Source of the DNA: Bacteroidales bacterium
Lineage (GTDB): Bacteria; Bacteroidota; Bacteroidia; Bacteroidales; F082
DNA length: 63,882 nt
Assembly: GCA_029933225.1 (NCBI GenBank)
Contig: JAOZOO010000001.1
Span: 1-63,882, forward strand
Reading direction: 5' to 3'
Positions within the stretch are counted from its first letter, which is position 1. Each line of letters begins with the position of its first letter. The translations under genes were made by a program, and so were the position numbers. A model generated the notes under the pieces. That model saw nothing but the letters and a program-made list of their open reading frames with translations. It was not told the DNA's origin and made no database searches. Below are positions 58 through 59,421 of the stretch, in pieces.

Positions 58-250
58 ATGGATGACTGGATGATTGGATGTTTCTTTAGTTCATTTTTCC
101 CTATTATCATTTCATCCATTCTTCCATCCATCCATTCTTCCACTATTCCAATCATCCATCTTTCTAATACTTCGCAAGAAACACTCTTCCAGGTCCTGCG
201 GACTCTGGAAGGTGTTTTCCTTCCATCCTTCCACTATTCCATCCTTCCAT
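58..250. repeat. Low-complexity pyrimidine-rich intergenic stretch
   Basis: The stretch is built from short repeats such as CCATCCATTC and TTCCACTATTCC, plus GGATGACTGGATGATTGGATG-like words at its left end. It encloses a hairpin at 179-217. The reading frames across it are simple-sequence artefacts rather than genes. Intergenic filler of this kind is common in environmental Bacteroidota. Confidence 0.5.
179..217. repeat. Dispersed palindromic element, copy 1
   Basis: Left arm AAACACTCTTCCAG and right arm CTGGAAGGTGTTT form a near-perfect hairpin around a 12-base centre. The same arms, with a different centre, recur at 28432-28472. It lies downstream of the radical SAM gene that ends at 250, so it could also act as a transcript end. 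Confidence 0.6.
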
Positions 251-1587
251 CAAATAACATCCGTCCCTTTTTTGATCAGCCAAAGCCGACCTATATTTTC
301 ATAAAATTTCTCCAAAGGTAACTTTGTCTTCATTACGCTGTTGAAAAAATTGTACTTATTGTAATCGTTGTCAATGATCTGATTTTTCACCTGCCGGTAA
401 AATACGGTTCCCGGCATGGGAGTCAGGATGGTGTAGCCGGCGTAAGTCACTTTATATGAGTTTGCATAATCGGCAAGGGCTTTAAAATCATCTTCATTAT
501 AATCATTGGGAACCACATAGTTGCCTCTCAGTAAAATGTTGTTCGCATGGAAGATATCAATGGCCTGGTGGATCATTCCGGCTTCCGAGCGTTTGTTGTA
601 TTTTATTAACTCGTCGTCACGGAACGATTCGAAGCCTGTGATCACCACTTTCAGCCCGGCTTTCGCCATTTTTTCGATCAGCCACGGGTAGTTCACGGCA
701 GTGTCGGCACGGATGTCCATGATGTATTCTTTGCGGATACCTTCTTCGTTGATCCGGTCAAACAACTTATCCATGAATTTGATATTCACCACCGAGTTGG
801 CATCGGCAAAGCGCACGATATCATAATTAATCAGTTTCAATTCCTCGATGACGCTTTCCACCCTGCGCTGGTAATATTTCCCGCCGTGCTCGATCCATAT
901 AGAACAAAAGGTACACTGATAGGGACAACCCAGCGAAGTGAACAGGTAAGTAGTTGGTCCCGGACTTTTCCCAACGACATAAGTCCAACGCCATCGCTCC
1001 AGATGACTGCGGTCGGGCATCAGAAAATGCTTGTCGGCCGCATCGTACACCATCGGCGCGGGGCCTGTATGATGATAACCCTTTTCATTGTTCAGGTAAA
1101 TGCCTTTGATATTTTCCAGCGACTGCTTTTTCTCCAGCGCTCTGATCACCTCCCTGAAAATGAAAGCGGAATGACCGGGTGCCACAACGTCAATGTCGGG
1201 GTCATTCATCTCCTGTGGGCATAGGGTGGTGTGCAGCCCGCCTGCCACAGTCACGATGGACGGATCAAACTTTCTAACCGTTCTGAAAATGGTCAGCGAA
1301 TCATACAGCTCGGAAGTGATGATGGTCACACCCACCACATCAGGTTGGGTCTTTTCCAGGATGCCTTCCACCATTTTATTTAATGGCGGGGCATCGGGGT
1401 CAAGGTCATATTCCCCTTTAGTGTCAAAAACAGTTACATCGTGGTCTTTTACTGCTGCGGCAACAGTCAATAAACCCAGCGGCGGCCCGATCAGCTTTTT
1501 GTGAATAAAATATTTCGCTTCTTCGGGCGCCGACTCGAGAATCATGTTCTCGGGTGAACGCGGCGGGTTTATTAATAATATCTTCAT
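250..1587 (-). CDS. Cobalamin-binding-type radical SAM protein (first copy)
   Basis: This 445-residue protein has an N-terminal Rossmann-like cobalamin-binding-type domain (about 1-160, starting MKILLINPPRSPENM) and a radical SAM core with the cluster motif CPYQCTFC (Cys221, Cys225, Cys228). The family typically performs radical methylations or ring rearrangements on lipids and natural products. No DxHxxG B12 motif is visible, so B12 use is unproven. The start was placed at MKILL rather than 19 codons upstream, because the extra residues do not fit the family and a promoter-like CACTTTTG (minus strand, 1606-1613) lies just upstream. It is transcribed away from the resorcinol locus, so membership in that pathway is inference. 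Specific substrate unknown. Confidence 0.88.
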   Translation of the reverse strand: MKILLINPPRSPENMILESAPEEAKYFIHKKLIGPPLGLLTVAAAVKDHDVTVFDTKGEYDLDPDAPPLNKMVEGILEKTQPDVVGVTIITSELYDSLTIFRTVRKFDPSIVTVAGGLHTTLCPQEMNDPDIDVVAPGHSAFIFREVIRALEKKQSLENIKGIYLNNEKGYHHTGPAPMVYDAADKHFLMPDRSHLERWRWTYVVGKSPGPTTYLFTSLGCPYQCTFCSIWIEHGGKYYQRRVESVIEELKLINYDIVRFADANSVVNIKFMDKLFDRINEEGIRKEYIMDIRADTAVNYPWLIEKMAKAGLKVVITGFESFRDDELIKYNKRSEAGMIHQAIDIFHANNILLRGNYVVPNDYNEDDFKALADYANSYKVTYAGYTILTPMPGTVFYRQVKNQIIDNDYNKYNFFNSVMKTKLPLEKFYENIGRLWLIKKGTDVI

Positions 1588-1709
1588 CGAAAAAAGAATT
1601 GACGGCAAAAGTGCGGAAAAAAATAAAACGGGCCCGTTGTTCAAACTTTTTCTGTCTGAAAGCGTAAAAATTCAATGAACCGGAATCTCCGGAAAATGAA
1701 CAAAAATTT

Positions 1710-3747: not shown

Positions 3748-3871
3748 AATTATTTTAATCACTAAAATAACTAATCTGTTTTTTAATTCGTGCCTCATCG
3801 TTCTACTTCTAATAATACCCTCCCCTCCAAACCAAAAAATTGAATATTTTTGGCAACCTTTTTTAAATAAA

Positions 3872-4345
3872 ATGAAAGAAAAAGAACTGTTTGTTGATTT
3901 CAAGCCCCAGCAGCTTGTCCTTTACGTTGAAAAAGAAGACGGCTCTTACGGGCAGGTGGTCTCCGGCTCGTATCTTGCCAAAAATTACCTCGACGACTAT
4001 TTCGACAAGGTGAAAAAATGGGACAAATCGTTGAAAGAGCAGTTAAAAAAAGGAGAGATCAGTCCGGTGTACTATTACCTGATTATGCAGGAATTCGGCG
4101 AAAAAGACCTGGCCTCACGGGTGGGCATCTCATTGCGGAAACTCAGAAAGCATTTCAAAATGGAACATTATATTAAAATGAGGTTGTCGTTGCTAAAACG
4201 ATATGCAGATGCTTTTGACGTTCCCGTGGCCAGTATGGTTCATTTTCTCGTGATTGGCAAAAAAGCGGCTAAACATTTAACGATTGAGAACCTGGATTCA
4301 CAAAATCCTTATTTCACAATCACGAAAATCGAAAGCGGTAAATAG
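3872..4345 (+). CDS. Helix-turn-helix-like protein of the BtrH module (copy A)
   Basis: This 157-residue protein has no signal peptide. Its middle contains a helix-turn-helix-like stretch (FGEKDLASRVGISLRKLRKH) followed by a second helical segment with LKRYADAFDVPV. It is a clear paralogue of the protein at 24635: both share a KGEISP.YY / GELSPIAYY block, a KHFK/KHLK block and a YADxF block. Both directly precede a BtrH-like gene. The start at 3872 (ATGAAAGAAAAAG) was chosen because upstream in-frame residues are low-complexity AT-rich sequence. DNA binding is inferred. Because the gene is always coupled to BtrH here, it could instead be a structural partner of that enzyme. Confidence 0.75.
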   Translation: MKEKELFVDFKPQQLVLYVEKEDGSYGQVVSGSYLAKNYLDDYFDKVKKWDKSLKEQLKKGEISPVYYYLIMQEFGEKDLASRVGISLRKLRKHFKMEHYIKMRLSLLKRYADAFDVPVASMVHFLVIGKKAAKHLTIENLDSQNPYFTITKIESGK

Positions 4346-4380
4346 TCACGGTAACGGTTTAAAAAAAACTGACAAAAAAA

Positions 4381-5385
4381 ATGAAAGAAATAGATTTTAA
4401 ACATAAAATGGCTGCCCATTGCGAAACAGGGACCGTTCAGGCACTGCTGAATCACAACGGGCTGGACATCTCCGAAGCCATGGTTTTCGGTATCGCCAGC
4501 GGGATATTTTTCGGGTATTTTGAATCCCGGAATTTCCCGTTTCCGACATTCATTGTCCGCAACAAACCGGGCTCCATCCGCACCAACATTTCAAAACGGC
4601 TGGGTGTGAAATGGGAAACAAAAAAATTCAGAAATCCAGCCGCGGGAGAAGCTGCACTGGACGAACTGATTATGAAAAAAATACCCACTGCCGCCCAGGT
4701 TGACTTCTATTATATGGAATACATGCCCGAGTGGATCAGGGTGCACATCAATGTCCATTTTGTGAATGTGATCGGGCTGAACGAAAGCCGGTATCTGCTC
4801 AGTGACAGTTATCACCCTGAAAAAGCGTTGCTGGAAAAAGAAACCTTTACCAAAGCCCGTTTTGTCGGCGGACACATGGCGCCAAAAGGGTTCATCTTTT
4901 ATCCGGTGCATATTCCTGAAAACATTGATTTTGAAAAAGCCATCAGGAAAGGGATCAAAAAAGCAGCCCATGACATGATCAGATTGCCTGTTCCTTTCAT
5001 CGGGGTAAAAGGCATCCGTAAATTTGCGAAAAAAGTTACCGGCTGGCCTGAAAAAGCACGCGACATTGACCATCTGTCGCACGAGATCATGAAGATCAAC
5101 GTATTGCTCGAAGATCAGGGTACCGGCGGTGCCGGATTCCGTTTCCTGTATGCTACCTTTCTGCAGCAGGCCTCGCAGAAACTCAATGACCCGCAACTGG
5201 AAACCATGTCGAAAAGGATGATGGAGATCGGCGACCACTGGCGAAATATTTCGTATTTTGCAGCCAAAATCGGAAAAAACCGCGATCTCGGCAAAGAACG
5301 ATTGAACGAGTTGAGCGCCATGATCTTTGATATGGCCGATCGCGAAGAGGCATTTTTTAGTGATTTGTATAAAATGGTAAAATAA
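4381..5385 (+). CDS. BtrH-like acyltransferase (copy A)
   Basis: The 334-residue protein belongs to the family of the butirosin biosynthesis protein BtrH (BtrH N-terminal domain plus DUF4872-like C-terminal half). BtrH moves an acyl group from an acyl carrier protein to an amine. A Cys-His-Asp arrangement is visible: Cys14 in AAHCETG, His126 in VHINVHFVNVIG, Asp142 in YLLSDSY, as in papain/C39-like folds. Other shared blocks with the second copy (25057) include ISKRLGV, GTGGAGFRF and MEIGDHWR. The stop overlaps the start of the next gene, an acyl carrier protein (TAATG), which fits an ACP-dependent acyl transfer. The acyl donor and acceptor are unknown. Confidence 0.85.
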   Translation: MKEIDFKHKMAAHCETGTVQALLNHNGLDISEAMVFGIASGIFFGYFESRNFPFPTFIVRNKPGSIRTNISKRLGVKWETKKFRNPAAGEAALDELIMKKIPTAAQVDFYYMEYMPEWIRVHINVHFVNVIGLNESRYLLSDSYHPEKALLEKETFTKARFVGGHMAPKGFIFYPVHIPENIDFEKAIRKGIKKAAHDMIRLPVPFIGVKGIRKFAKKVTGWPEKARDIDHLSHEIMKINVLLEDQGTGGAGFRFLYATFLQQASQKLNDPQLETMSKRMMEIGDHWRNISYFAAKIGKNRDLGKERLNELSAMIFDMADREEAFFSDLYKMVK

Positions 5386-5681
5386 TGAAGGAAGAGAGCA
5401 GTGCTGTAATTACCAATATTGATAAGCTGAAGACTGAAATCAAAGAACTGATCATCAATACCCTCAAAATAAAAAAGGTGAAACCCGAAGATGTGGACGA
5501 CAGCGCCCCCCTGCTGGCCCCCGGTAACCCTCTGGGGCTCGACTCGGTGGACGCCATTGACATCATCGTAACAGTTCAGAAACATTTCAATGTGCGGATT
5601 GACGACCAGAATATGGCCCGCAATGTGCTCGAATCCATTGACACCCTCGCCGAATTCATTGCCAGGCAAAAGAATCAGTAA
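5385..5681 (+). CDS. Acyl carrier protein
   Basis: This 98-residue acidic protein carries the phosphopantetheine site GLDSVDAIDI (Ser54) and the usual four-helix length, with a short N-terminal extension. Its start overlaps the BtrH stop by one base, so the two are translationally coupled. It is probably the dedicated carrier for an acyl group handled by the neighbouring BtrH-like enzyme and sulfotransferase, rather than the housekeeping AcpP. That assignment rests on context. Confidence 0.93.
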   Translation: MKEESSAVITNIDKLKTEIKELIINTLKIKKVKPEDVDDSAPLLAPGNPLGLDSVDAIDIIVTVQKHFNVRIDDQNMARNVLESIDTLAEFIARQKNQ

Positions 5682-5705
5682 AGCGCTAATCTATTTTTAA
5701 GCCGT

Positions 5706-6785
5706 ATGAAACATTCATACCTTCTGGCCGGAACCACCTCGGGAATTTTTTTTAAGCTGCTTTCGCAAAATGGTTTCTCACCGGCTTATCTCGGACGTAT
5801 CGCTTTTCTGACTCAAAACGGGATTTGGGCTTCGGCGTTCAAAAAACGGGAAAAAAAGAAATTCGGGAAAATCATCCGTGATTACCAAATGCCTGCCGAC
5901 CCGGTTTTTATCATCGGCCACTGGCGCACGGGAACCACTTTCCTGCACCAGTTGATGGCACTCGATGAAAACCTGGTCACCCCCAATGTTTTGCAGGTCT
6001 CCGTGCCGGACAGTTTTCTGGTTTCCGATAAATACTATGCACCGGTGATGTCGAAAATGATGAGCCCCACCCGGCCGATGGACAATGTGAAGCTGGGCGT
6101 TTTCGAACCGCAGGAAGATGAATATGCCCTGCTGAAACTGACGCTGGATTCGCCGCTTATCAAACTTCTTTTCCCCGATAGCGACGATTATTTTCTGAAA
6201 CATTTCGAGGATTTCAATCCGCGGGAAGACCACACGGAAAACTGGAAAAATCAACTGCATATCTTTTGTAAAAAGTTGAGTTTCACCAAAAAGAAGAGGG
6301 TTCTGCTGAAAAATCCGTTTCATTCCATGCGTATTCCCCTGTTGCGTGAAATGTATCCGGGGGCCAGATTCATTCACATTCACCGCCATCCTTACAATGT
6401 CATTCCTTCCACGATCAACATGTGGAATATTGTGGGGCGGCAGAACCGGCTGAAAAACAGGAACCCTGTCCTGACGGTGGAAGACGTGGCGGTGGTAATG
6501 AACAGGATGCTCACAGGAATAAGAAAAGTCAGTGAAAAGCTGAACAGGCAGGATTATATCGAAGTCAGGTTTGAAGAGTTTGAAACGGACCCTGTGACAG
6601 GATTGAAAAAAATATACAACCATCTTGGGTTGGAATACACGGATAAGCTGGACGAAAAAGTGAAAACCTTTTTGCAGGAAGTAAAAGGATACCGGAAAAA
6701 TAAATTCAACCTGACTGAAACGGAAAAGGAAATTATCCGTGACAAACTGAAAGAACAATTTGTTCATTACGGTTATGAGCTGTAG
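5706..6785 (+). CDS. PAPS-dependent sulfotransferase family protein
   Basis: The 359-residue protein has the 5'-phosphosulfate loop GHWRTGTTFLH (71-81) and the 3'-phosphate-binding segment with HRHPYNVIPS (about 226-235), the two signatures of PAPS-dependent sulfotransferases (Sulfotransfer_3 type). It lies 24 bases after the acyl carrier protein in the same transcript. By context it could sulfate a hydroxyl of the resorcinol lipid, its sugar, or an ACP-bound intermediate. Some family members have lost sulfotransferase activity, but both cofactor motifs are intact here. Confidence 0.85.
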   Translation: MKHSYLLAGTTSGIFFKLLSQNGFSPAYLGRIAFLTQNGIWASAFKKREKKKFGKIIRDYQMPADPVFIIGHWRTGTTFLHQLMALDENLVTPNVLQVSVPDSFLVSDKYYAPVMSKMMSPTRPMDNVKLGVFEPQEDEYALLKLTLDSPLIKLLFPDSDDYFLKHFEDFNPREDHTENWKNQLHIFCKKLSFTKKKRVLLKNPFHSMRIPLLREMYPGARFIHIHRHPYNVIPSTINMWNIVGRQNRLKNRNPVLTVEDVAVVMNRMLTGIRKVSEKLNRQDYIEVRFEEFETDPVTGLKKIYNHLGLEYTDKLDEKVKTFLQEVKGYRKNKFNLTETEKEIIRDKLKEQFVHYGYEL

Positions 6786-7046
6786 AAAAGATATCTCCGT
6801 GCCTCTTTGTGCCTGCTTTGTGGCTCTTTGTGAAACAGTTATTACACGGAATTTCACAGAGAATATACAAAGTCCCACAGAGAGAAACTTAACAAGAATG
6901 TAATACTTAATGATTAAATAATGTTATTCAGTACTTAAATAAAACGATTTCAATTAGTTATGAACCATTCGAAATTTTGGTCATATTTGTTTCAAACGCT
7001 TTATTTTAAAAAGTGGCATCTTTGAACCCCAAAAGGAAGGAAAAAC

Positions 7047-8312
7047 GTGAAAGTAAAATTAATATACCCCAAATGGCCTAAACTGGAACGGCAAACCGAA
7101 TTTAATCTGCCGCCGCATGGTCCCATCGTTTTTGCCGCGGCACTACCGGATTACGTGGAGGTGGACTTTGTGGACGAAAACATGGAGGATTTTAATTACG
7201 ACGACCCGGTGGACCTGGTGTTTATTTCCATGATGCTGACAACACAGGTGAAACGGGGCTGGGAAATTGCAGACAATTACCGGGCGCGGGGCTTGAAGGT
7301 TATTTTCGGAGGTATCTCCACCATGCTCCATGCCGAGGAAACCATGCAGCATGCCGACAGCGTGTTCATGGGTGAAGCCGAAGGCCACATGGAAGAAGTG
7401 CTGGAGGATTTCAGAAAAGGCGAACTGAAGAAACTGTACAACTTTATGAACCGGCAACCGGATACTGCGCTTATCGGGCCGGCACGCCGCGACCTGCTCA
7501 AACGGGATTTTTATTACCACAAAGGCGTGCAGATGGTTGATCTTTTCCATGCCTCGCGGGGATGCCGTTTCAACTGTTACCCGTGTGCCGTGGCCTTTCT
7601 CGGTGGTCGCCGTTTCAGACCCAGGCCTTTCGACCGGGTGGCAGAAGAGTTGGCCACCATTGACAACAACCGCCTGTTTGTGGTGGATAACACCCTGGCA
7701 CAGGACAAGGAATGGACAAAAGAACTGTTCCGTACCATGATCCCGTTCAAAAAGAAATGGTGCAGTCACACCATCAGCGCCGATCCCGAAGTGCTCGACC
7801 TGGCAGCACAGGCGGGGGCATGGTATGTTTATCAGGCGGTATTCGACACCTCCGACTACATCAGGGAAAGGATCAAGATGTACCACGATTACGGTATCAG
7901 CGTGGAAGGCACCGTCCTGCTCGGCATGGATCACCAGACCGAGGACGACATTAAAGAACTGCTGGATTTCATCCGCGAAATTGACCTCGACCTGGCTGAA
8001 TTTACCATCCTGGTGCCCTTCCCCGAAACCAAAGCTTATGACGACCTGCTGAAAGAAGGGCGCATCTTTGACTTCGACTGGAACCATTACACCGCCGACA
8101 AAGTAGTCTTTCAGCCGAAACACCTGACGCCGGAGAAATTACAGGAACTGTACTATTATGCCTGGGACAGCTTTTACGCCGACGAAAGCCAGGAACAGAA
8201 GATGTTCAGGCTGATGATGAAAGTGGTGGAACGCGAAATGGAAGACGGCACCTACCGCCCGCCACGAAAAGATTTGATGGAGAAAAGTTTCGGGCATATT
8301 GTGGACAGGTAG
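7047..8312 (+). CDS. Cobalamin-binding-type radical SAM protein (second copy)
   Basis: This 421-residue protein has an N-terminal cobalamin-binding-like domain (about 1-125, opening KLIYPKWPKLERQ) and a radical SAM core with SRGCRFNCYPC (Cys173, Cys177, Cys180). It starts with GTG at 7047, supported by AAGGAAGG seven bases upstream and by the family-typical opening. It differs from the protein at 250-1587 in both halves, so the two are distant relatives, not a recent duplication. Roles known for the family include C-methylation and lipid-chain chemistry. Here it could methylate or otherwise tailor the alkyl chains of the resorcinol product. The 260-base spacer upstream contains only a degenerate CTCTGTG-type repeat (about 6790-6890). 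Confidence 0.87.
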   Translation: MKVKLIYPKWPKLERQTEFNLPPHGPIVFAAALPDYVEVDFVDENMEDFNYDDPVDLVFISMMLTTQVKRGWEIADNYRARGLKVIFGGISTMLHAEETMQHADSVFMGEAEGHMEEVLEDFRKGELKKLYNFMNRQPDTALIGPARRDLLKRDFYYHKGVQMVDLFHASRGCRFNCYPCAVAFLGGRRFRPRPFDRVAEELATIDNNRLFVVDNTLAQDKEWTKELFRTMIPFKKKWCSHTISADPEVLDLAAQAGAWYVYQAVFDTSDYIRERIKMYHDYGISVEGTVLLGMDHQTEDDIKELLDFIREIDLDLAEFTILVPFPETKAYDDLLKEGRIFDFDWNHYTADKVVFQPKHLTPEKLQELYYYAWDSFYADESQEQKMFRLMMKVVEREMEDGTYRPPRKDLMEKSFGHIVDR

Positions 8313-8500
8313 TTGGTTCCTGATTATATTTGGTGGTTATAAGTTTGACCATCACAAAATGAATATTGTAAGATTTGGTGATAGCTTAAATGTATTATTA
8401 AAGGTTAAATAGAAATTTCTGATGATGTATGATTAGCCGGGATACGAATAAACCTTAATAGCATGGGACGTCAAAAAATAACATCAACCTTATTATCTTA

Positions 8501-8530
8501 TTTTGAACTGGTTTTAGATTAATAAATTCG
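8501..8530 (+). promoter_or_regulatory. Candidate promoter for the gene at 8544
   Basis: TTTTG (8501-8505) and TAAATTCG (8523-8530) are separated by 17 bases, close to the Bacteroidota -33/-7 pattern with one mismatch in the -7 box. The start codon follows 13 bases later. Confidence 0.35.
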
Positions 8531-8543
8531 TTTACAAAAAACG

Positions 8544-8918
8544 ATGAAAGAGCAAAGCAAATACAGGGACCGGATTTACCATTTCAAAGGGAAATGGGAT
8601 GTGCCGAGTATTTGCGGCCTGAAAGTGGTTGAAAAACCCGACAAGACCATCGTCATTGCCACCAACCTTTACGACGAAAACCCCGGCACCTCCATCTCAC
8701 GCTGGTCGGCACAACTGGCCACCTCCATCTGTAACGACCTGAACATCGACCCCGCAAAGCTTCTCTTCATCGAGCATAACCCCGACGTCCACTCCCGCCT
8801 GGATTTCTACCGGGAGACCTTCGACATTGTCACCTTCCAACGCGAAGGCGACCGTTTCACCCAACCGAAATGGAAACGGATTACGAAGGAGGAGGTGGAT
8901 GGGTTGATTGGGGAATAA
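8544..8918 (+). CDS. Conserved hypothetical protein
   Basis: This 124-residue soluble protein has no signal peptide and no motif I can assign. It has the pattern seen in small Bacteroidota proteins that open with DRIYHFKGKWDVP and contain LYDENPGTSIS and IEHNPD blocks, so I take it as a real, conserved family. It stands alone between the radical SAM gene and the TonB-dependent receptor, with its own promoter candidate. No function can be given. Confidence 0.7.
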   Translation: MKEQSKYRDRIYHFKGKWDVPSICGLKVVEKPDKTIVIATNLYDENPGTSISRWSAQLATSICNDLNIDPAKLLFIEHNPDVHSRLDFYRETFDIVTFQREGDRFTQPKWKRITKEEVDGLIGE

Positions 8919-9060
8919 AGGTACTGGGGTATAGAGGTATAGGGGGAATAAGGGAAATATTGGAATTGGTGGAATTGCCTGGCGTGATTAGGCGGGCCTG
9001 CCCGTATCGGACGGTTCATTTGAGTGGGGATGGTAGATTGTTATTATTACCCTACTTTTC

Positions 9061-9122
9061 CGGATTTGGATTTTGTTCTTTGTGATTTGGATTTTGTTTG
9101 ATCTTTGGCGTTTGGAATTTCT
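9061..9122. repeat. Degenerate TTTGGATTT/TTTGATCTTTGG repeat
   Basis: The stretch is made of short variants of GGATTTGGATTTTGTT and GATCTTTGGCGTTTGG. The reverse-complement style of the same filler (CAAATATCAAAC, CACAAATTCC) occurs at 16741-16801. The surrounding 8919-9170 interval shows no gene. Confidence 0.4.
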
Positions 9123-9170
9123 TTTTCGTGTTATCGATTAATTCCGATATTCGTTTTTCAAAACAAGAGC

Positions 9171-11549
9171 GTGTTTCTGTTACGGAAAAAAATATGGTTT
9201 CTGATAGCAATTTTATTAATTGCCGGTCTTCAATTGCCTGCCCAGCAACCGTTAACCCAAACCATCCGGGGAAAAGTGATTGACCGGGATTCGCGGGCGG
9301 GACTGCCCGGAGCCAATGTGGTTCTTGTGGGTTCAAAGCCCCCGCTTGGCACAGCCACGGACAATGACGGCAATTTTATCCTGAAAAACGTACCCGTGGG
9401 CAGGCAAAGTCTCAAAGTCAGTTATACCGGCTACCAGACCGTTATCCTTCCAGGGATTATTGTCCGCACAGGAAAACAACCGGTGCTGACCATCGAACTG
9501 AAAGAAGATGTGAAATCGGTGGGCGAAGTGGAAATTGTTGGCTATCAGCGCAAAGATAAGCCCATCAATCCCATGGCGCTGGTGAGTGCCCGTTCTTTCA
9601 CCGTCAACGAAACTAACAAATACGCAGGCAGCTACGGCGACCCGGCACGGATGGTGGCCAACTATGCCGGCGTGGTTTCTACACGCGACAACCGCAACGA
9701 CATTATCATCCGCGGTAACTCACCCATGGGACTGCAATACCTTTTGAACGGCGTGGAAATCACCAATCCTAACCATTTCAGCGCCCTCGGCACAACGGGT
9801 GGGCCCGTAACCATCCTGAACGTCAACCTGCTGGCCAATTCCGATTTTCTCACGGGAGCTGTCCCGGCAAGCTATGGCAATGCGCTGGCAGGCGTCTTCG
9901 ATCTGAAAATGCGGACGGGCAATCCCGACGTGCGGGAGTACTGGGGCGAGTTGAGCTTCAACGGACTGGAATTCGGACTGGAAGGGCCGTTTTCTAAAAA
10001 ATCATCAGCCACTTATATCGCTGCCTACCGCTATTCATTAACGGGACTGCTTGAGAACATGGGGGTGCGGTTAAAAGAAAGCGCCAATTTTCAGGACCTT
10101 TCTTTCAATCTGGCTTTCCCTACGAAAAAAGCAGGAACATTCAAACTTTTCGGTATGGGCGGAATCAGTAAAATAAAAATTCTTGACTCCAACAAACCCG
10201 AGGAAAAATGGACATTTCCCACCCACGGAGAAAACATCATCAACAGTTCCTCATTGGGTGTGTCCGGATTGTCGCATCTCTATTTCTTCAATAAAACCAC
10301 CCGGATACTAACGCACCTCTCCGTGGTGGCTTCACAGGTGGAAACGGAGGTGGACACCTTCAGCATCCAGAACCAGACACCTTTCATTTTTGCCGGGGAG
10401 AAATCGGGAGAAGTCAAATACAACCTTTCATCCAAAGTGATGAAAAAGTTCAGCGCTGCCGATAATTTTGATTTCGGAATATCAGCCGATCTGTACGATG
10501 TGAACTACAACGACAGCGCCTACAAGCACCGTGAAAACAGTTACAGGCATTATACCGGGAGCCGTGCCAATTATTATCTGTTGCAGGCCTTTACCCAGTG
10601 GAAACATAATTACAGCAACCGGTTCAGCTCTGTCATCGGTCTGCGCTACCTATATCTGACGCTGAACGGAACATGGTCGCTTGACCCGCGGCTGGCCGTT
10701 TCGTGGAACATCACCCCCACACAGTCGCTGAACTTCGGGGCCGGTCTGCAAAGCCAGATGCAGCCCCGTATGATGTATTTTGTACAAACGCCCCTTGAAA
10801 ATAGCGGATATTACCTGACCAACAAGAACATGGGGCTTTCCAAAAGCGGGCAGGTTATGCTGGGATATAACGCGCTGTTCCTCGAATATTTCAGAATCAA
10901 AGTGGATGCCTATTACCAGTATCTGTTTGATATTCCGGTTTCCGAAAGCATTCCACAATATTCCATCATCAATCAGGGCACCGAGTATTACGTGGAACGG
11001 CAGGATTCGTTGGTCAACAAAGGTACGGGGACAAATTACGGACTGGAATTCACGTTAGAGAAATTTTTCAGCCGCAATTATTTCTTTCTGTTCACCGCGT
11101 CGCTTTACCAGTCAAAATACAAAGGATATGACGGCATCATGCGGAACACGGCTTTCAACGGAAATTTCGTGCTCAACGGTGTAGGGGGCTACGAATTGCC
11201 GTTGGGAAAAACAAAACAGCGGTCGCTCATCTTCGGATTGCGGGTGACCTGGGCCGGTGGAAGGCCGTATGTGCCTTACGACCAGGAGGAAACCGTAAAG
11301 CAGGGGGAAGTGGTCTATGACCGGAAAAATGCCTACCAACCCCGTTTCCCCGATTATCTCCGCTCCAGCTTACGGATCGGCCTGCGCCGGAATGAAAAGA
11401 AATTCAACATGGAATTCTATTTCGATCTTCAGTACCGCGCCAATTACACTTACATTTATTATTACCGCATTGATGTGCTCACCGGCGATATTTACAAAGA
11501 ATACCGGCTGGGATTTTACCCGATGGCGGTGGTGAGGGTACAGTTTTAG
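9171..11549 (+). CDS. TonB-dependent receptor with N-terminal carboxypeptidase-like domain
   Basis: The protein (about 792 residues from a GTG start at 9171) has a signal peptide ending LQLPAQQ, a carboxypeptidase-regulatory-like beta-sandwich (TIRGKVIDRDSRAGLPGANV), a plug domain (DIIIRGNSPMGLQYLLNGVE) and a C-terminal beta barrel ending in an aromatic residue (AVVRVQF). It imports an unknown ligand across the outer membrane using TonB energy. It lacks a SusD partner, so it is not a standard glycan system. The GTG start is chosen because it gives a compact signal peptide; a TTG start at 9105 would add 22 unlikely residues. Placement inside the resorcinol region may be incidental. Confidence 0.85.
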   Translation: MFLLRKKIWFLIAILLIAGLQLPAQQPLTQTIRGKVIDRDSRAGLPGANVVLVGSKPPLGTATDNDGNFILKNVPVGRQSLKVSYTGYQTVILPGIIVRTGKQPVLTIELKEDVKSVGEVEIVGYQRKDKPINPMALVSARSFTVNETNKYAGSYGDPARMVANYAGVVSTRDNRNDIIIRGNSPMGLQYLLNGVEITNPNHFSALGTTGGPVTILNVNLLANSDFLTGAVPASYGNALAGVFDLKMRTGNPDVREYWGELSFNGLEFGLEGPFSKKSSATYIAAYRYSLTGLLENMGVRLKESANFQDLSFNLAFPTKKAGTFKLFGMGGISKIKILDSNKPEEKWTFPTHGENIINSSSLGVSGLSHLYFFNKTTRILTHLSVVASQVETEVDTFSIQNQTPFIFAGEKSGEVKYNLSSKVMKKFSAADNFDFGISADLYDVNYNDSAYKHRENSYRHYTGSRANYYLLQAFTQWKHNYSNRFSSVIGLRYLYLTLNGTWSLDPRLAVSWNITPTQSLNFGAGLQSQMQPRMMYFVQTPLENSGYYLTNKNMGLSKSGQVMLGYNALFLEYFRIKVDAYYQYLFDIPVSESIPQYSIINQGTEYYVERQDSLVNKGTGTNYGLEFTLEKFFSRNYFFLFTASLYQSKYKGYDGIMRNTAFNGNFVLNGVGGYELPLGKTKQRSLIFGLRVTWAGGRPYVPYDQEETVKQGEVVYDRKNAYQPRFPDYLRSSLRIGLRRNEKKFNMEFYFDLQYRANYTYIYYYRIDVLTGDIYKEYRLGFYPMAVVRVQF

Positions 11550-11554
11550 CAGAA

Positions 11555-11653
11555 TGTAATTTACAAAATGTTGAATAATTACATCAGAAAGTATCAGGGT
11601 TTAATATTTAATCATTATCTTCGCAAAATGTAGTTTACAATTTGTAATTTACA
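11555..11653. promoter_or_regulatory. Three TGTAATTTACA palindromes upstream of the ATPase
   Basis: TGTAATTTACA occurs at 11555-11565 and 11643-11653, and a one-base variant TGTAGTTTACA at 11629-11639. Two copies are followed by AAATGTT, extending the repeat to 18 bases. The last two are 14 bases apart, and the third ends 14 bases before the start codon, so a bound protein would block the gene. Similar arrays in front of archaeal-type AAA ATPase genes suggest autoregulation, which is inference. Confidence 0.55.
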
Positions 11654-11666
11654 AAATGTTAAAAAG

Positions 11667-12794
11667 TTGAAAAAACCTGTAAACCCTTTTATTACGGCCG
11701 GTTATTACGGAGTCAGATATTTTTGTGACAGGGAGACGGAAACAAAATCTTTGCTCCAAAACATGACAAACGGACTGTCAACCACACTCATTGCGATCAG
11801 AAGAATTGGCAAAACCGGCCTGATCAGACATGTCCTTGCCAAATTACCCGCGGGCTATACTTCCATTTATGTTGACATTCTTCCCACCGAGAATATGAAT
11901 GAGTTTTTAAATTTTCTGGCATCGGCCGTTATCAACTCCATTCCTCAAAAAACCGGCCCGGGAAAGATAATTATGGATTTTATTAAGTCTTTAAGGCCGG
12001 TAATTACTTACGACCCGTTGACGGGTATCCCTCAAGTCACGATTGATGTCCGGAAAGGAGAAGCCCCCAAACACATCGACAGTATTTTCAAACATTTGGA
12101 GAAATACCCAAAAAGAATAGTCATTGCCATTGATGAGTTTCAGCAAATTCTGGAATATCCTGAAAAAAACACGGATGCCTGGCTACGCTCTTCCATACAA
12201 AATTTAAAGAACGTTACTTTTATTTTTTCAGGAAGCAGGCAACATTTGATGGATGATCTTTTTTCGGATCCTTCGCGGCCGTTTTACCGGAGCACAAGTT
12301 TGCTGAATATCGGAAAAATCAAATCCGAAATTTATGCTTCATTCATTATCAGGCACTTTAAAAACAACGATAAAAAAATCAGCAGGGAAATCGTTGAAGA
12401 AATGCTGGAATGGACTGATATACACACCTATTATGTTCAGCTTTTATGCAACAAGGTGTTTGCAGTAAGCGGTAATCATATCACTTCTGAAACCTGGAAG
12501 GAAGAAGCACATAAATTGTTGGAAGAACAGGAGTTATTGTTCCTTAAATACCGTGATTTATTGACAACCCATCAGTGGCAGTTGCTGAAAGCCATAGCCC
12601 GCGGAGGACAGGTCTATTCCCCTTCTTCCAAAGATTTTGTTACGGAAAATGCTCTCGGCAGCCCGTCCACGGTTTTACGTTCCCTGGATGCATTGTTGAA
12701 AAAACAGATGATCTATTCCGATTATGATTCGGATAAAAAATTGTTTTACAAAGTTTATGACCTTTTACTACGCAGATGGCTTGAAAATCAGTAA
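11667..12794 (+). CDS. Archaeal-type AAA ATPase
   Basis: This 375-residue protein belongs to the family of stand-alone ATPases whose members start NPFxxAGYYxxxYFCDRExE. It has a P-loop variant IRRIGKT (about 44-50), a Walker B IVIAIDEF near residue 148, an arginine-containing SGSRQHLM segment and a C-terminal winged-helix-like region (about 300-375). It starts with TTG at 11667, directly after an array of palindromes. These genes are widespread, mobile and of unknown role; several relatives are thought to sense stress or act in selfish maintenance. It has no evident link to the lipid locus. Confidence 0.82.
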   Translation: MKKPVNPFITAGYYGVRYFCDRETETKSLLQNMTNGLSTTLIAIRRIGKTGLIRHVLAKLPAGYTSIYVDILPTENMNEFLNFLASAVINSIPQKTGPGKIIMDFIKSLRPVITYDPLTGIPQVTIDVRKGEAPKHIDSIFKHLEKYPKRIVIAIDEFQQILEYPEKNTDAWLRSSIQNLKNVTFIFSGSRQHLMDDLFSDPSRPFYRSTSLLNIGKIKSEIYASFIIRHFKNNDKKISREIVEEMLEWTDIHTYYVQLLCNKVFAVSGNHITSETWKEEAHKLLEEQELLFLKYRDLLTTHQWQLLKAIARGGQVYSPSSKDFVTENALGSPSTVLRSLDALLKKQMIYSDYDSDKKLFYKVYDLLLRRWLENQ

Positions 12795-12836
12795 ATATTG
12801 TCAACCTAAAGTTGTCTTTAAAGCTTTGCGTGAAAA

Positions 12837-16682: not shown

Positions 16683-16740
16683 GGTTTTGTTGCCGGTTAA
16701 ATCTCAATTTAAGGGGTTCTCAATCTTGTCCCCGGGAAAA

Positions 16741-16801
16741 TCACAAATATCAAACTGCAAATATCAAACAAATCACAAATTCCAGATCAAAAACCCGAAA
16801 A
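16741..16801. repeat. Degenerate CAAATATCAAAC repeat
   Basis: The words CACAAATATCAAAC, GCAAATATCAAAC and CACAAATTCC follow each other here, in the spacer between the exporter fusion and the glycosyltransferase gene. It is the opposite-strand style of the filler at 9061-9122. No gene is seen in 16683-16911. Confidence 0.4.
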
Positions 16802-16911
16802 CTGTTTGTTATTTTAGATTTTTGATTTCCCGGATAAAATTCAAAAATGATTACCACCAATCCCCTTCCGGGAAGAGAACAGCGGAATTTATTTGCTGAT
16901 TTTCATGCTGG

Positions 16912-18153
16912 TTACAAATTCTTCATTTTTTTCTTTTTCCCCCGCCACCATGAAATTTTCATTATCAGGTATGAAACCGTTCCGGTCGCCAGACCCATGA
17001 CGGCAGCAAATACAATGGCTCCGATGATGTACTGAAAGATGCTGTATCCCAGTTCGTCCAGGGTAGCATAAAAATTTCCGGCCATTACCTGTGTTTTCAG
17101 GTTTTGCAATGTTTCCATGCTCAGCTCCTCGTACCGGTTCAGCACCAGGCCGCCGGTTTTGTAACTGAAATACACGATGAACGGGATCATCGGCGGGATA
17201 CTGATGTTGGAAGCTGCCAGAACGATAATCTTGTTGAGCCGTATAAAATGGGCCATGAATGCCGCCACCAGCATCTGAAACCCCCATATGGGTACAATCC
17301 CCATGAACACCCCGAAACCCAGCGCGGAAGACACTTTCAGCGGATTTTCGTTGTGGGCGCGTATCTGCTCTTTGACAATGGTGGTGAATTTGTTCCGGGT
17401 GAGATACAACACGGCATTGCGGGGGATGATGTACAAAAAGGTGACCAGCACCAGGATGGTGTTCAGCACACTGATGCGGCCAAAATCGGGCAGTGGCCTG
17501 AAATGGGTCACGCGCTCCTCTTCCGGGGGATAATAAACCTTCACGGGAACGGGCACAATCTTTATCCCGCTCCATGCCGAACGCACAAGCACCTCTACCT
17601 CAAACTCGTATTTGGTTGAGAAAAACCGGGTTTTATCGTATCGCCTGACGGGATACAAACGGTAACCCGATTGTGTGTCGGGGAGTTTCTGCCCCGTTTC
17701 CACCCAAAACCAGAAATTGGAAAACTTGTTGGCAAAGGTGTTCTTGGCGGGCATCCCTTCGATCTCAATGTTTCGTGAGCCAATAATCAGAGCATCCGGC
17801 TCTTCATTTAGTTTGTCTGCAAACACTTGCAGATCAGCGGCATCATGCTGCCCGTCGGCGTCAATGGTGACGGCCCGGTCAAACCCTTTTTCCATCGCCC
17901 GCCGGAACCCCTGCCGGATGGCATAGCCCTTGCCCCGGTTCTTTTCGTAGCTGATAATGTCAACATCCCGGATGTTTTTGAGTAACTCTTTTGTGTTGTC
18001 CGTTGAGCCGTCGTCCACCACAATGACATCGGAGCAGTAACGCTGCACATCGCGGATGACCTGCAAAACGGTTTTATTGTTGTTGTAGGTGGGAATGATC
18101 ACGCAGACACCATATCCTTCAAATATATTTTTATGTTGGTTGGCTTTGCCCAT
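16912..18153 (-). CDS. Family 2 glycosyltransferase fused to DUF2062 membrane domain
   Basis: This 413-residue protein has a GT-A glycosyltransferase domain (CVIIPTYNNNKTV, VVDDGSTDN, TIDADGQHD) followed by a hydrophobic DUF2062 domain with three to four membrane spans and a basic tail. Both parts recur together in flexirubin-type clusters. It probably transfers a sugar to, or helps place, the lipid at the inner membrane. The start at MGKANQHKN (18153) is preferred over one eight codons upstream because a perfect -7 box TATTTTTG (18175-18182) would place the transcript start near 18168. Confidence 0.88.
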   Translation of the reverse strand: MGKANQHKNIFEGYGVCVIIPTYNNNKTVLQVIRDVQRYCSDVIVVDDGSTDNTKELLKNIRDVDIISYEKNRGKGYAIRQGFRRAMEKGFDRAVTIDADGQHDAADLQVFADKLNEEPDALIIGSRNIEIEGMPAKNTFANKFSNFWFWVETGQKLPDTQSGYRLYPVRRYDKTRFFSTKYEFEVEVLVRSAWSGIKIVPVPVKVYYPPEEERVTHFRPLPDFGRISVLNTILVLVTFLYIIPRNAVLYLTRNKFTTIVKEQIRAHNENPLKVSSALGFGVFMGIVPIWGFQMLVAAFMAHFIRLNKIIVLAASNISIPPMIPFIVYFSYKTGGLVLNRYEELSMETLQNLKTQVMAGNFYATLDELGYSIFQYIIGAIVFAAVMGLATGTVSYLIMKISWWRGKKKKMKNL

Positions 18154-18174
18154 ACGGATTGTGCAGGTAAATTG

Positions 18175-18182
18175 CAAAAATA
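18175..18182 (-). promoter_or_regulatory. -7 box for the GT2/DUF2062 operon
   Basis: On the minus strand the sequence is TATTTTTG, an exact TAnnTTTG match, 22 bases before the start codon at 18153. It faces the darA promoter region across a 92-base palindromic element. Confidence 0.45.
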
Positions 18183-18216
18183 CCTTTTTGTGGCAATGGT
18201 CGGATGTTTGGTTTTC

Positions 18217-18334: not shown

Positions 18335-18358
18335 CCCACTGAAATTGTAACCACCAAC

Positions 18359-19276
18359 ATGAAGAAAGTTCTGGTCATTACCTATTCGCAATCGGGGCAG
18401 TTAGATGAAATCGTGGAGAATGTCATTAGCCCGCTGCAAGGCAAAGCGGAAATCGTGTATGAAAAACTGAAACCCGTACCGCCGTTCCCATTTCCGTGGA
18501 AAGACATTTCTTTCTGGGATGCCATGCCCGAATCGGTGGAGATGATACCCGCAACCCTCGAGCCGTTCAAGTTTGACCCCGGCGAAAAATATGACCTCAT
18601 CATCCTCGGTTATCCAATCTGGTTTCTCTCGCCGCCCATCCCGCTGACTACGTTCCTGAAATCAGAAACGGCAAGGAAGGTGTTGAATGATAAACCGGTT
18701 GTCACCGTCATCGGCGCCCGCAATATGTGGGTCAGCGCACAGGAAGACATCAAAAAGATGATTGCCGAAGCAGGCGGAAAACTGAAAGGTAACATCGTCC
18801 TGCACGACCGTCACAACAACCTCTCCAGCGTGGTCACCATCATTTACTGGATGATGACCGGCAAAAAAGAACGTTACCTCAGTGTCTTCCCCAAACCGGG
18901 CATCTCGGATGAAGACATTGCCGGAGCGGTGAGATTTGGAAACCCCATTCTGGCGGCTTTAAATAACAATAACTGGGATAGCCTGCAGGAAGAACTCCTG
19001 AAACTAAAAGCCGTTGAAGCTTATCCTTCAGTGATTTCCATGGAACGGAAAGCCAAGCGGATTTTCAGGGTCTGGTCGCGTTTCATCCGTAAAAAAGGAG
19101 GCCCAGGAGAAAAAGCAAGAGAAACCCGCCTGAAAATGTTCAAGTGGTATCTGCTATTTGTTATTTTTGCCGTTTCGCCAATTGCAACATTGGTATTTTA
19201 TTTAACCTATCCGTTTTTCTTCCTGAAGATCAAACGGAAAATGAAATACTTTAAAAGCGTAACCTTAAACCAATAG
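18359..19276 (+). CDS. darA: Dialkylresorcinol condensing enzyme DarA
   Basis: The 305-residue protein matches DarA, which with DarB closes the aromatic ring of dialkylresorcinols. Recognisable features are the flavodoxin-like opening VLVITYSQSGQ, the family block FPFPWKDISFWDAMPES and a hydrophobic C-terminal segment (WYLLFVIFAVSPIATLVFYL) that anchors it to the membrane. The start at 18359 was chosen because upstream in-frame residues come from the palindromic element and the promoter box lies at 18327. darB follows after 20 bases, so the pair is an operon. Confidence 0.93.
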   Translation: MKKVLVITYSQSGQLDEIVENVISPLQGKAEIVYEKLKPVPPFPFPWKDISFWDAMPESVEMIPATLEPFKFDPGEKYDLIILGYPIWFLSPPIPLTTFLKSETARKVLNDKPVVTVIGARNMWVSAQEDIKKMIAEAGGKLKGNIVLHDRHNNLSSVVTIIYWMMTGKKERYLSVFPKPGISDEDIAGAVRFGNPILAALNNNNWDSLQEELLKLKAVEAYPSVISMERKAKRIFRVWSRFIRKKGGPGEKARETRLKMFKWYLLFVIFAVSPIATLVFYLTYPFFFLKIKRKMKYFKSVTLNQ

Positions 19277-19296: not shown

Positions 19297-20433
19297 ATGA
19301 CAAATGTTTACATAAACAAAATATCCAAATTTCTCCCCAACCAACCTGTTTCCAATGATGAGATGGAAGATTATCTCGGGCTGATCAACGGAAACACATC
19401 CATCAATAAGAATCTGATTTTGCGAAGCAATGGCATAAAAACAAGATATTATGCCATGGACAAGAACGGAAATCCGACACACAACAATGCACAACTCACC
19501 GCCCTTGCCGTCAACAAACTTTTTGATGAAACTTTTTCTTTGGAAGATGTTGAATTGCTGACTGCCGGCACTTCCTCACCCGATCATATCCAACCCTCAC
19601 ATGCCCTGATGGTTTTGGGAGAACTTGGCGGACATCCCCTGGAAGTGATGTCTGCACACGGTACCTGCAATGCCGGGATGCTTTCGCTGAAATATGCCTG
19701 GACGAATATCCTGTCGGGCCTTTCGGCCAATGCAGTGGCTGCTGCTTCGGAAACATTCAGCTCATGGATGCATGCCCGGAACTTTGAAAAGGAAATTGAC
19801 AAACGAAAAGAAATTGAGCAGAATCCCTATATCGCATTTGAGAAAGACTTTCTGCGATGGATGCTTTCCGACGGTGCTTCGGCCATGCTTTTGCAGGACA
19901 AACCGGGAAACGGCCCGGTTTCACTGAAGATTGACTGGATATCTATCCGTTCATTTGCCAATGAACTGGAAACCTGTATGTATGCCGGTTGCGTTAAAGA
20001 TGAAAGCGGAAAAACAAAAGGTTGGCGCGAAATGACGGAAGACGAACGGCTGGAACAATCTGTTTTCTCTTTGAAACAGGATGCACGGCTTCTTCAGGGC
20101 AACATCGTTCAGAAAGGCGCTTTACTGATCAAACAGATTTTAAAAGAAAAACAGCTTGATGTCAATGAGGTGGATTATTTTCTGCCCCATATTTCTTCCA
20201 TGTTTTTCAAAAAGCAGGTTTACAACAGCCTCCGGGATGAAGGTATGGAAATTCCTTACGATAAATGGTTCCTTAACCTGCCTTATGTGGGCAATGTGGG
20301 TGCGGCTTCGGCGTTTTTGATGATCGAAGAGCTTTTCAATAGCGGCAGGTTGAAAAAAGGTAACCGCCTCCTGTTCATGGTTCCCGAAAGCGCCCGGTTT
20401 TCCTATACATTTATGCTGTTGACGGTGGTGTGA
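19297..20433 (+). CDS. darB: DarB, ketosynthase III-type enzyme
   Basis: This 378-residue thiolase-fold protein has the catalytic triad of KAS III enzymes: Cys124 in AHGTCNAGM, His298 in FLPHISS and Asn333 in VGNVGAAS. Its place directly after DarA identifies it as DarB, which condenses a beta-ketoacyl thioester with a second acyl thioester to give the precursor of the resorcinol ring. The acyl groups may be ordinary fatty acids, because no aryl-polyene synthase genes are present nearby. A convergent gene starts about 60 bases after the stop, with no obvious terminator between. Confidence 0.93.
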   Translation: MTNVYINKISKFLPNQPVSNDEMEDYLGLINGNTSINKNLILRSNGIKTRYYAMDKNGNPTHNNAQLTALAVNKLFDETFSLEDVELLTAGTSSPDHIQPSHALMVLGELGGHPLEVMSAHGTCNAGMLSLKYAWTNILSGLSANAVAAASETFSSWMHARNFEKEIDKRKEIEQNPYIAFEKDFLRWMLSDGASAMLLQDKPGNGPVSLKIDWISIRSFANELETCMYAGCVKDESGKTKGWREMTEDERLEQSVFSLKQDARLLQGNIVQKGALLIKQILKEKQLDVNEVDYFLPHISSMFFKKQVYNSLRDEGMEIPYDKWFLNLPYVGNVGAASAFLMIEELFNSGRLKKGNRLLFMVPESARFSYTFMLLTVV

Positions 20434-24623: not shown

Positions 24624-24634
24624 ATTCCCTGAAG

Positions 24635-25060
24635 ATGAAAGCTAAAGAAGTACCACAGGATGATGCCAATATGATGCGGGGGAAATGGAAGGATCCCATT
24701 TACACCGTAGATGAAAACGGGAAATACACCACTTCTTACAGCCTGGGTTGGGAAGTAAAAAATGCCGTGATGCAGCAGGCCTGGGACAACATCCGCGAAA
24801 AACTGGAAGAAATCCGAAAAAAAGTGCTTGCAGGCGAATTGAGTCCCATAGCTTACTATATGGAAAAAAATATTATGGACGTGAGTCTGCTGGCGAAATA
24901 TATGGAGCTTTGGAAGTGGACGGTTAAAAAACATCTGAAACCCAAACATTTCAATAGGCTATCGCAGGAAACGCTCGAAAAATATGCTGACATATTCAAC
25001 ATCACGACGGACGAACTGAAAGACCTCGAAAAAATCAAAAACGAAAAGTTGCCTGAATGA
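24635..25060 (+). CDS. Helix-turn-helix-like protein of the BtrH module (copy B)
   Basis: The 141-residue protein is the paralogue of the one at 3872: it shares GELSPIAYYM, LLAKYM, KKHLKPKHF and LEKYADIFNIT in the same order. An acidic-basic helical segment precedes the HTH-like core. Its stop overlaps the start of the BtrH-like gene (ATGA at 25057), so the two are translated together. Tight coupling to the enzyme argues for a partner-protein role as much as for transcription control. Confidence 0.75.
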   Translation: MKAKEVPQDDANMMRGKWKDPIYTVDENGKYTTSYSLGWEVKNAVMQQAWDNIREKLEEIRKKVLAGELSPIAYYMEKNIMDVSLLAKYMELWKWTVKKHLKPKHFNRLSQETLEKYADIFNITTDELKDLEKIKNEKLPE

Positions 25061-26067
25061 ATGTAAAGATAGATTTTGAGCACCGCCAGTTTGCCCACTG
25101 TGAGAACGGAGTGGTTTCCAACTTGCTTCGTTATTATGGCATTGAGTTGAGCGAACCGATGATTTTTGGTATTGGGTCGGGGCTTTTCTTTTCACACATG
25201 CCTTTTTTGAAGGTGGATGGCATTCCGGTAACTTCGTTCAGACCATTACCCGGCGTCATTTTCAGCCGCATTTCCAAACGGCTGGGGGTGGATTTTGAAA
25301 AAAGGCGCTACCGCAACAGTCCCTCAAAAGCCATGTCCGACCTGGATAAAAACCTGGAAAAAGGTATTCCCACGGGCATGCTGGTCGGGGTGTATCATCT
25401 TTCTTATTTCCCCGAGCCCTACCGTTTTCATTTCAATGCCCACAACATTGTGGTTTATGGTAAAGAGGGTGATAGCTATCTGATCAGTGATCCCATCATG
25501 GAAAATCATTCGGAACTAACATCCAAAGAACTGAAACGGGTACGTTATGCCAAAGGCACCTTCGCCCCCAAGGGCCACATGTACTGGGTGAAGAAAATAC
25601 CGGAAAAGATCGACATTCCCGGTGCTGTTGTCAAAGGAATAAAGCACACCTGCAAAGACATGCTGACCATTCCGGTTCCGCTTTTCGGTGCTAAGGGTAT
25701 TCGATATATGGCTGGAAAAGTGAGGCATTATCCTGACAAGCTCACGCCGAAAAAAGCAGCGCTGTTCACGGGTCAGATAGTGAGGGCACAGGAAGAAATC
25801 GGAACGGGCGGCGCCGGATTCCGGTTCATGTATGCGGCATTCCTTCAGGAAGCGGCCGGAGTTTTGAAAAAGGACGAACTCAACAAACGGTCGTCAGAAA
25901 TGACCACCATCGGCGATATGTGGCGCGAATTTGCCATCGTCACCGGAAGGATAGTAAAAAACAGGAACAAAGTTGATGAAAGTTATGACCATGCGGCCAA
26001 CCTGTTGCTGAAGATTTATGAAGAAGAAAGGGATTTTTACAAACGGCTCCGCGATACGATTGACTGA
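25057..26067 (+). CDS. BtrH-like acyltransferase (copy B)
   Basis: This 336-residue paralogue of the protein at 4381 keeps the possible Cys-His-Asp triad: Cys15 in FAHCENG, His129 in FHFNAHNIVVYG and Asp145 in YLISDPI. Other common blocks are FGIGSGLFF, ISKRLGVDFE, FGAKGIRYMAGKV and GTGGAGFRFMY. It overlaps its neighbours on both sides (four bases with the HTH-like gene, one base with the ABC ATPase gene), so acyl transfer and export are probably co-produced. No acyl carrier protein is adjacent in this copy. Confidence 0.85.
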   Translation: MNVKIDFEHRQFAHCENGVVSNLLRYYGIELSEPMIFGIGSGLFFSHMPFLKVDGIPVTSFRPLPGVIFSRISKRLGVDFEKRRYRNSPSKAMSDLDKNLEKGIPTGMLVGVYHLSYFPEPYRFHFNAHNIVVYGKEGDSYLISDPIMENHSELTSKELKRVRYAKGTFAPKGHMYWVKKIPEKIDIPGAVVKGIKHTCKDMLTIPVPLFGAKGIRYMAGKVRHYPDKLTPKKAALFTGQIVRAQEEIGTGGAGFRFMYAAFLQEAAGVLKKDELNKRSSEMTTIGDMWREFAIVTGRIVKNRNKVDESYDHAANLLLKIYEEERDFYKRLRDTID

Positions 26068-54406: not shown

Positions 54407-54439
54407 ATTTCTATTTTTTTATAATTTCAACATTTACGA

Positions 54440-57745: not shown

Positions 57746-57810
57746 AATGTTAAATTTTGGTTATTAATATGATTTATTACTACTAAGATCCATCGGGAAT
57801 CTTAAAAACA

Positions 57811-57837: not shown

Positions 57838-57883
57838 ATTAACAATTTTTATGAAAGAAATATTTACACTTTTTTAACAAAAA

Positions 57884-57915: not shown

Positions 57916-57936
57916 GTCATTTAAAAAGATAAATCC

Positions 57937-59409: not shown

Positions 59410-59421
59410 TATTCATTTTGT

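Follow-up and report, generated by a model that had tools for sequence, protein, structure and literature searches.

We found that a sulfotransferase gene of a Bacteroidales bacterium belongs to a conserved cassette, reg2-DarH2-ACP-sulfotransferase, and its distribution suggests that this cassette goes with aryl-polyene (flexirubin-type) genes and not with the adjacent resorcinol genes, with a physical linkage that is partial. The gene lies in a stretch of 63,882 nucleotides, positions 1 to 63,882 of contig JAOZOO010000001.1, which is referred to here as the window. The enzyme is probably a PAPS-dependent O-sulfotransferase that serves, as part of a dedicated cassette, a cluster initiated by a FlxA-type tyrosine ammonia-lyase (TAL) and making an aryl-polyene of the flexirubin type, with the product or its lipid anchor as target.

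By its motifs and its predicted fold, the gene encodes a real and intact sulfotransferase, for which we infer both catalytic activity and substrate. The protein matched the Pfam family Sulfotransfer_3 (PF13469) with an E value of 1.3e-31 (111 bits; cut-off, 27). A previous, sequence-only reading of this DNA had described an intact sulfotransferase with a PAPS loop (GHWRTGTTFLH) and an HRHP motif, encoded 24 bases after an ACP gene, and our analysis bore this out in full: the two motifs occupy residues 71 to 81 and 226 to 229, and the ACP open reading frame ends at 5681, leaving 24 bases to the sulfotransferase start. We aligned 40 sequences, namely, the window protein, those of 28 of 41 ortholog loci, and those of 11 of 39 distant homologs. 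Residues G71, H72, R74, G76, and T78 of the loop were invariant, as were R227, P229, and S235 and, elsewhere in the protein, D87, R123, D126, E137, and K202. All 41 other ortholog genomes gave one match each at E ≤ 1e-50, with no internal stop codon. Because of these 41 intact matches and the invariant residues of the cofactor motifs, we consider the gene to be real, far beyond chance.

The counts given here derive from three samples. The first is a set of 61 related genomes, 8 of which carry a sulfotransferase ortholog with at least 57% identity (G000, G001, G002, G004, G016, G020, G026, and G029, the one in G020 being a fragment at a contig end); the remaining sulfotransferase matches among these relatives, none above 33% identity, were paralogs or homologs. 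The second is a wider scan of contigs, from which we retained 80 of 174 candidate loci. These comprised 41 ortholog loci at 40% identity or more, mostly labeled as Bacteroidales or Bacteroidetes metagenome-assembled genomes, with two labeled Chlorobiota and two only "uncultured bacterium," and 39 distant homologs at 26 to 33% (L098 to L101 and L103 to L137), mostly from planctomycetes and Heimdall archaea. The first seven of the 41 ortholog loci overlap the set of relatives. Flanks were read over at most 10 kb on each side and were often cut by contig ends. The third, the class-wide sample, comprises 395 genomes spread evenly over the class, among which only the window's own genome carries the sulfotransferase ortholog.

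The genes of the cassette and its surroundings are listed in Table 1. Of the 37 ortholog loci for which at least 2.1 kb of upstream sequence was available, 35 showed the order reg2-DarH2-ACP-sulfotransferase, the exceptions being L074, which has a run of N just upstream, and L085; four more loci were cut by contig ends. None of the 39 distant homolog loci had DarH2 or the cassette ACP in the flanks available, some of which were short. A DarH gene stands beside the sulfotransferase in all eight ortholog-bearing relatives, and the window itself harbors two DarH paralogs, DarH1 in the dar block and DarH2 in the cassette. In DarH2, His13-Cys14, His122, His126, and Asp142 were near-invariant (conserved in all or all but one of 37 sequences), and the same was true of Asp53-Ser54 of the cassette ACP (38 sequences). 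The small protein heading the cassette, reg2, was recovered in 35 of the 41 ortholog loci. Its listed open reading frame begins at 3650, but conservation starts only at codon 75, where M75-K76-E77 is near-invariant in 37 sequences.

Table 1. Features of the window around the sulfotransferase cassette
Feature	Position	Strand	Basis and remarks
rSAM9, B12-binding radical SAM protein	250..1644	-	Pfam B12-binding and Radical_SAM; divergent from the cassette
reg2, small conserved protein heading the cassette	3872..4345	+	No Pfam family; helix-turn-helix-like by eye only
DarH2, BtrH-related acyltransferase	4381..5385	+	NF053550, 323.5 bits (cut-off 300); BtrH_N and DUF4872
Cassette ACP	5385..5681	+	PP-binding, 29.7 bits
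Sulfotransferase	5706..6785	+	359 aa, ATG start; Sulfotransfer_3 match
rSAM6, B12-binding radical SAM protein	7047..8312	+	Pfam Radical_SAM over cut-off, B12-binding just below
f15, conserved small protein after rSAM6	8544..8918	+	No Pfam match
TonB-dependent-receptor-like protein	9105..11549	+	Named from reading the sequence alone
MMPL exporter-acyltransferase-methyltransferase fusion, 1281 aa	12837..16682	-	Pfam MMPL, Acyltransferase, and Methyltransf_31
Glycosyltransferase family 2 (GT2)-DUF2062 protein	16912..18177	-	Pfam; pairs with the MMPL fusion
DarA-like protein	18353..19276	+	Weak flavodoxin match only; dar block, outside the cassette
DarB ketosynthase	19297..20433	+	NF053539, 565.5 bits (cut-off 550); neighboring dar block
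DarH1, DarH of the dar block	25057..26067	+	NF053550, 458 bits (cut-off 300)

Several neighbors of the cassette recur as well. Homologs of rSAM6 and of the TonB-receptor-like protein were present in the flanks of 23 and 26 of the 41 ortholog loci, respectively, and the order rSAM6-f15-TonB is repeated across them. An rSAM9 homolog was found in eight of these loci and is directly upstream and divergent in L060 to L064 and L092. The MMPL fusion adjoins the sulfotransferase locus in G001, G004, and G002 and is also found within the clusters of G484 and G466; the homologs in G001 and G004 have the same length as the window protein. Farther along the window, at 52904-62664, we noted two tandem SusC/SusD-like gene pairs by reading the sequences.

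We then counted TAL genes in the same samples, using the curated cut-off, since at E ≤ 1e-100 histidine-ammonia-lyase-like proteins (about 340 to 390 bits) match too, in 211 of the 395 genomes of the class-wide sample. TAL exceeded the cut-off in 31 of the 41 ortholog genomes, and three more had partial matches of 434 to 681 bits, which we counted separately. In the class-wide sample, 62 of 395 genomes scored over the cut-off. Among the relatives, 22 of 61 genomes carried TAL; the sulfotransferase-bearing genomes contributed 7 of these (out of 8) and the others 15 (out of 53). Fisher tests gave a P value of 0.002 within the relatives and one of 3e-15 when 31/41 was compared with 61/394, values that are too small because the genomes share ancestry. 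Seven of the 41 ortholog genomes had no TAL. Neither did G004, a 98% complete genome that carries the cassette without most of the dar block, and this weakens the tie to TAL. Moreover, the seven genomes of the class-wide sample with the next-best sulfotransferases (L051 to L057; 31 to 33% identity), six of which are of one genus, all had TAL over the cut-off and showed none of the cassette genes over the roughly 1.5 kb next to the sulfotransferase. The association may therefore partly reflect lineage.

In terms of distance, TAL lies near the sulfotransferase in G462 (about 2 kb), G466 (about 6 kb), and G020 (8.5 kb). In G471, G474, G484, G485, and G488, a single contig also carries both genes, with 46 to 69 kb between them, and in the single-contig genome G469 they are separated by about 415 kb. 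Taken together, TAL shared a contig with the sulfotransferase in 8 of the 41 ortholog genomes (G462, G466, G469, G471, G474, G484, G485, and G488) as well as in one genome of the relatives set, G020. The remaining 26 of the 34 TAL-positive genomes among the 41 carry it on a different contig, these assemblies being fragmented.

Physical linkage is seen in G484, where a stretch of about 56 kb (C23:176968-233002; L138 to L141) runs from TAL (176968) to an AMP-ligase (233002) and consists mostly of aryl-polyene-type homologs, the cassette being located inside it at 228036-230858. The best blastp matches along this stretch were mostly reference genes of the aryl-polyene-type set, with identities of 26 to 71%. 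Besides TAL, it encodes an SDR, ketosynthases with chain-length-factor-like partners, ACPs, acyltransferases, a DarH1-like protein, ABC proteins, LolA, a thioesterase, two enoyl-CoA hydratases, a KAS III-like protein, a 3-hydroxyacyl-CoA dehydrogenase, and several radical SAM proteins. A GT2 gene, the MMPL fusion, an FAD oxidoreductase, an AAT-type acyltransferase, a TonB-like protein, and an O-methyltransferase complete the set, together with the cassette and the AMP-ligase. The stretch contains two DarH paralogs, and no DarB was found anywhere in the G484 genome. In the genome from which the window comes, contig C159 carries much of the remaining aryl-polyene-type set, including TAL.

These data are consistent with a pathway whose cluster, in the window's genome, would occupy at least two contigs, that of the window and C159. 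DarH2, as a BtrH-like cysteine acyltransferase, would move an acyl group from the cassette ACP onto an acceptor; its chemistry is presumably that of BtrH, and such a transfer fits because His13-Cys14, His122, His126, and Asp142 of DarH2 and the Asp-Ser pair of the ACP are kept. The target of the sulfotransferase could then be a hydroxyl group on the acceptor, on the 4-hydroxyphenyl end, or on the pigment lipid, and sulfation would precede export by MMPL/LolA-type machinery. From these sequences we infer the catalytic activity and its substrate, as well as the succession of steps and the export. More tentatively, we put forward that uncultured Bacteroidota may make sulfated aryl-polyene esters without a dialkylresorcinol: DarH2 would join the ACP-bound chain to a non-resorcinol acceptor and the sulfotransferase would add a sulfate, so that an anionic pigment or lipid of the outer membrane would result.

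Regarding the supply of PAPS, an APS kinase (PF01583, E ≤ 1e-10), which is a common gene, was detected in 38 of the 42 ortholog-bearing genomes. The window's own draft genome (92% complete) yielded none, and the same held for G456, G457, and G467. A weak APS kinase match in the window's own genome was discarded, as the sequence reads as an SRP54/Ffh-like GTPase. In G469, an APS kinase (L074 9330-10000) lies near the sulfotransferase, but we do not claim adjacency, because a run of about 100 N separates the two.

A pigment-related target is not the only conceivable one. Sulfotransfer_3 members act on diverse substrates, and homologs of about 30% identity, mostly from planctomycetes and Heimdall archaea, occur without the cassette. 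The enzyme might thus sulfate an unrelated lipid, a sterol-like compound, or a glycan, with the cassette residing in pigment clusters only through shared export and regulation. One paper, for instance, links PF13469 proteins of Pontiella to glycosaminoglycans by similarity. We consider this unlikely, given the tight cassette formed with an ACP and a DarH-type acyltransferase and the strong association with TAL.

The structure of the protein bears on another explanation. The AlphaFold2 model (mean pLDDT, 92.9) has a sulfotransferase fold, and the closest relatives of the predicted structure are the mycobacterial enzymes STF9 and STF1, which were also its top PDB sequence matches. With the model as query, Foldseek returned an E value of 1.1e-11 for both. 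In VIA-align comparisons, STF9 (2z6v) gave a Z score of 25.3 and an rmsd of 3.7 over 327 aligned residues (model residues 16-357), and STF1 (2zq5) gave a Z score of 23.7 and an rmsd of 3.8 over 307 aligned residues (model residues 12-351). The likeness therefore extends over nearly the whole chain, although sequence identity to the window protein is only 16 to 18%, and neither STF9 nor STF1 is known to adjoin an ACP and a DarH-type acyltransferase. Lower structural matches were tyrosylprotein sulfotransferases, with Z scores up to 16.5, and the sulfotransferase domains of CurM and of an olefin synthase (4gbm and 4gox), with 15.0 and 14.6.

These last two domains, which were the only other PDB sequence matches at E ≤ 1 (olefin synthase, 1.5e-5; CurM, 0.0033), share with the present protein both the fold and an ACP neighbor. 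They are polyketide synthase domains that act in olefin formation and are followed by a thioesterase domain. By analogy, the enzyme encoded directly after the cassette ACP gene could sulfate a β-hydroxyacyl chain on that ACP, the sulfate then leaving to create a double bond, so that none would be present in the final product. We regard such a role as quite improbable. STF9 and STF1 match far better than the CurM-type domains, although function is not settled by a common fold, the upstream partner is a BtrH-type acyltransferase, and the arrangement differs: the CurM-type layout was not observed in the window, where the sulfotransferase is a stand-alone protein of 359 residues and the next gene encodes a radical SAM protein, not a thioesterase.

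The resorcinol genes next to the cassette could be taken as its partners instead, and it was indeed as part of a "resorcinol locus" that the sequence-only reading had presented the gene. In the window, DarB starts 12.5 kb downstream of the sulfotransferase, next to a gene that we take to be darA from its position beside DarB, and ABC-transporter-like genes, as read from the sequence, follow DarH1. The contig of G001 aligns to the window up to base 18641, past the same GT2 gene and into the first 290 or so bases of DarA; because it reaches the DarA start, G001 may share the arrangement of the window, with DarB past its contig end. Across whole genomes, DarB was enriched in the sulfotransferase-bearing relatives (6/8 versus 10/53 of the others), and a functional tie to resorcinol in those relatives could for this reason exist. 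The positions of DarB speak a different language. Among the 61 relatives, a DarB-grade match and the sulfotransferase shared a contig solely in the window's own genome; DarB was on another contig in G002, G016, G020, and G026, as was a DarB fragment in G029, and neither G001 nor G004 had a DarB-grade match. In the wider sample, DarB (E ≤ 1e-30) was present anywhere in only 9 of the 41 other ortholog genomes, in one of them as a fragment, and shared a contig with the sulfotransferase only in the single-contig G469, at a distance of about 1.2 Mb. Neither DarA nor DarB was found in the flanks of any of the 41 ortholog loci, within the 10 kb or less per side that contig ends often shortened further.

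G004 is informative in this respect. Broad collinearity with the window extends from 3827 to 18203, after which the G004 locus continues with a gene matching window 24207-24626 (57% identity over 138 residues), a remnant of 36 residues matching the start of DarH1 (83%), and a homolog (91%) of the glutamate-dehydrogenase-like gene at 28764. The remnant and the gene matching window 24207-24626 lie at about 3925-4479 of L031, between GT2 and the glutamate-dehydrogenase-like gene. Over the 20 kb searched, tblastn gave no match for DarA, DarB, the genes at 21270 and 22646, or the ABC genes. The persistence of the DarH1 remnant suggests that the dar block was lost in G004 and not absent from the start. 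Its sulfotransferase is intact, with 77% identity and no stop codons. This genome thus counts against the resorcinol tie, and it does not count in favor of the TAL tie, since it is without TAL as well.

Taken together with the presence of a separate DarH in the dar block, the poor co-occurrence with DarB and the retention of the cassette in G004 led us to reject resorcinol linkage as the main explanation, and a sulfotransferase acting on a dialkylresorcinol or a flexirubin ester from the adjacent DarA/DarB locus is very unlikely. Of the former description as a resorcinol locus, the proximity to DarB holds, and membership in that pathway is not supported by conservation with dar genes in related genomes, the check that this reading had proposed. 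The suggestion of a sulfated flexirubin relative fares better, but only for one half of the pathway: the aryl-polyene half, with TAL in 31 of 41 ortholog genomes, is the probable partner.

A conserved acyltransferase-ACP-sulfotransferase cassette would point to sulfated pigments or sulfated anchors, which have not yet been described, and a "DarH" annotation alone does not imply a resorcinol product. Our literature search, which covered main texts and few subscription journals, found no sulfotransferase placed in an aryl-polyene or dialkylresorcinol cluster, and "sulfated" in PMC10734526 refers to polysaccharides. According to the main texts of the respective papers, the starter of flexirubins and aryl-polyenes is TAL-derived 4-coumarate (PMC3992019) or, in Escherichia coli, 4-hydroxybenzoate (PMC8253772). 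The E. coli ape cluster resembles the clusters described here in its ketosynthases, ACPs, acyl-ACP synthetase, LolA-like protein, RND transporter, and acyltransferases. It differs in starting from 4-hydroxybenzoate and not from TAL, and the string "sulf" is absent from the main text of PMC8253772. The same string is absent from the main text on the arcuflavin arc/dar clusters of Azoarcus (PMC3949708), which are similar in combining aryl-polyene and dar genes and in having a BtrH-like gene near darA/darB. The flexirubin clusters of Chitinophaga pinensis and Flavobacterium johnsoniae (flxA to flxY plus darA/darB; PMC3992019) share TAL, several ketosynthases, LolA, a polysaccharide deacetylase, an acyltransferase, a glycosyltransferase, an exporter, and an acyl-CoA ligase with the present clusters. 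Neither "sulfo" nor "BtrH" occurs in the main text of that paper, to which our comparison was confined. Compared with these flexirubin clusters as described there, the present ones usually have no DarB and add a second DarH, B12 radical SAM proteins, and the sulfotransferase.
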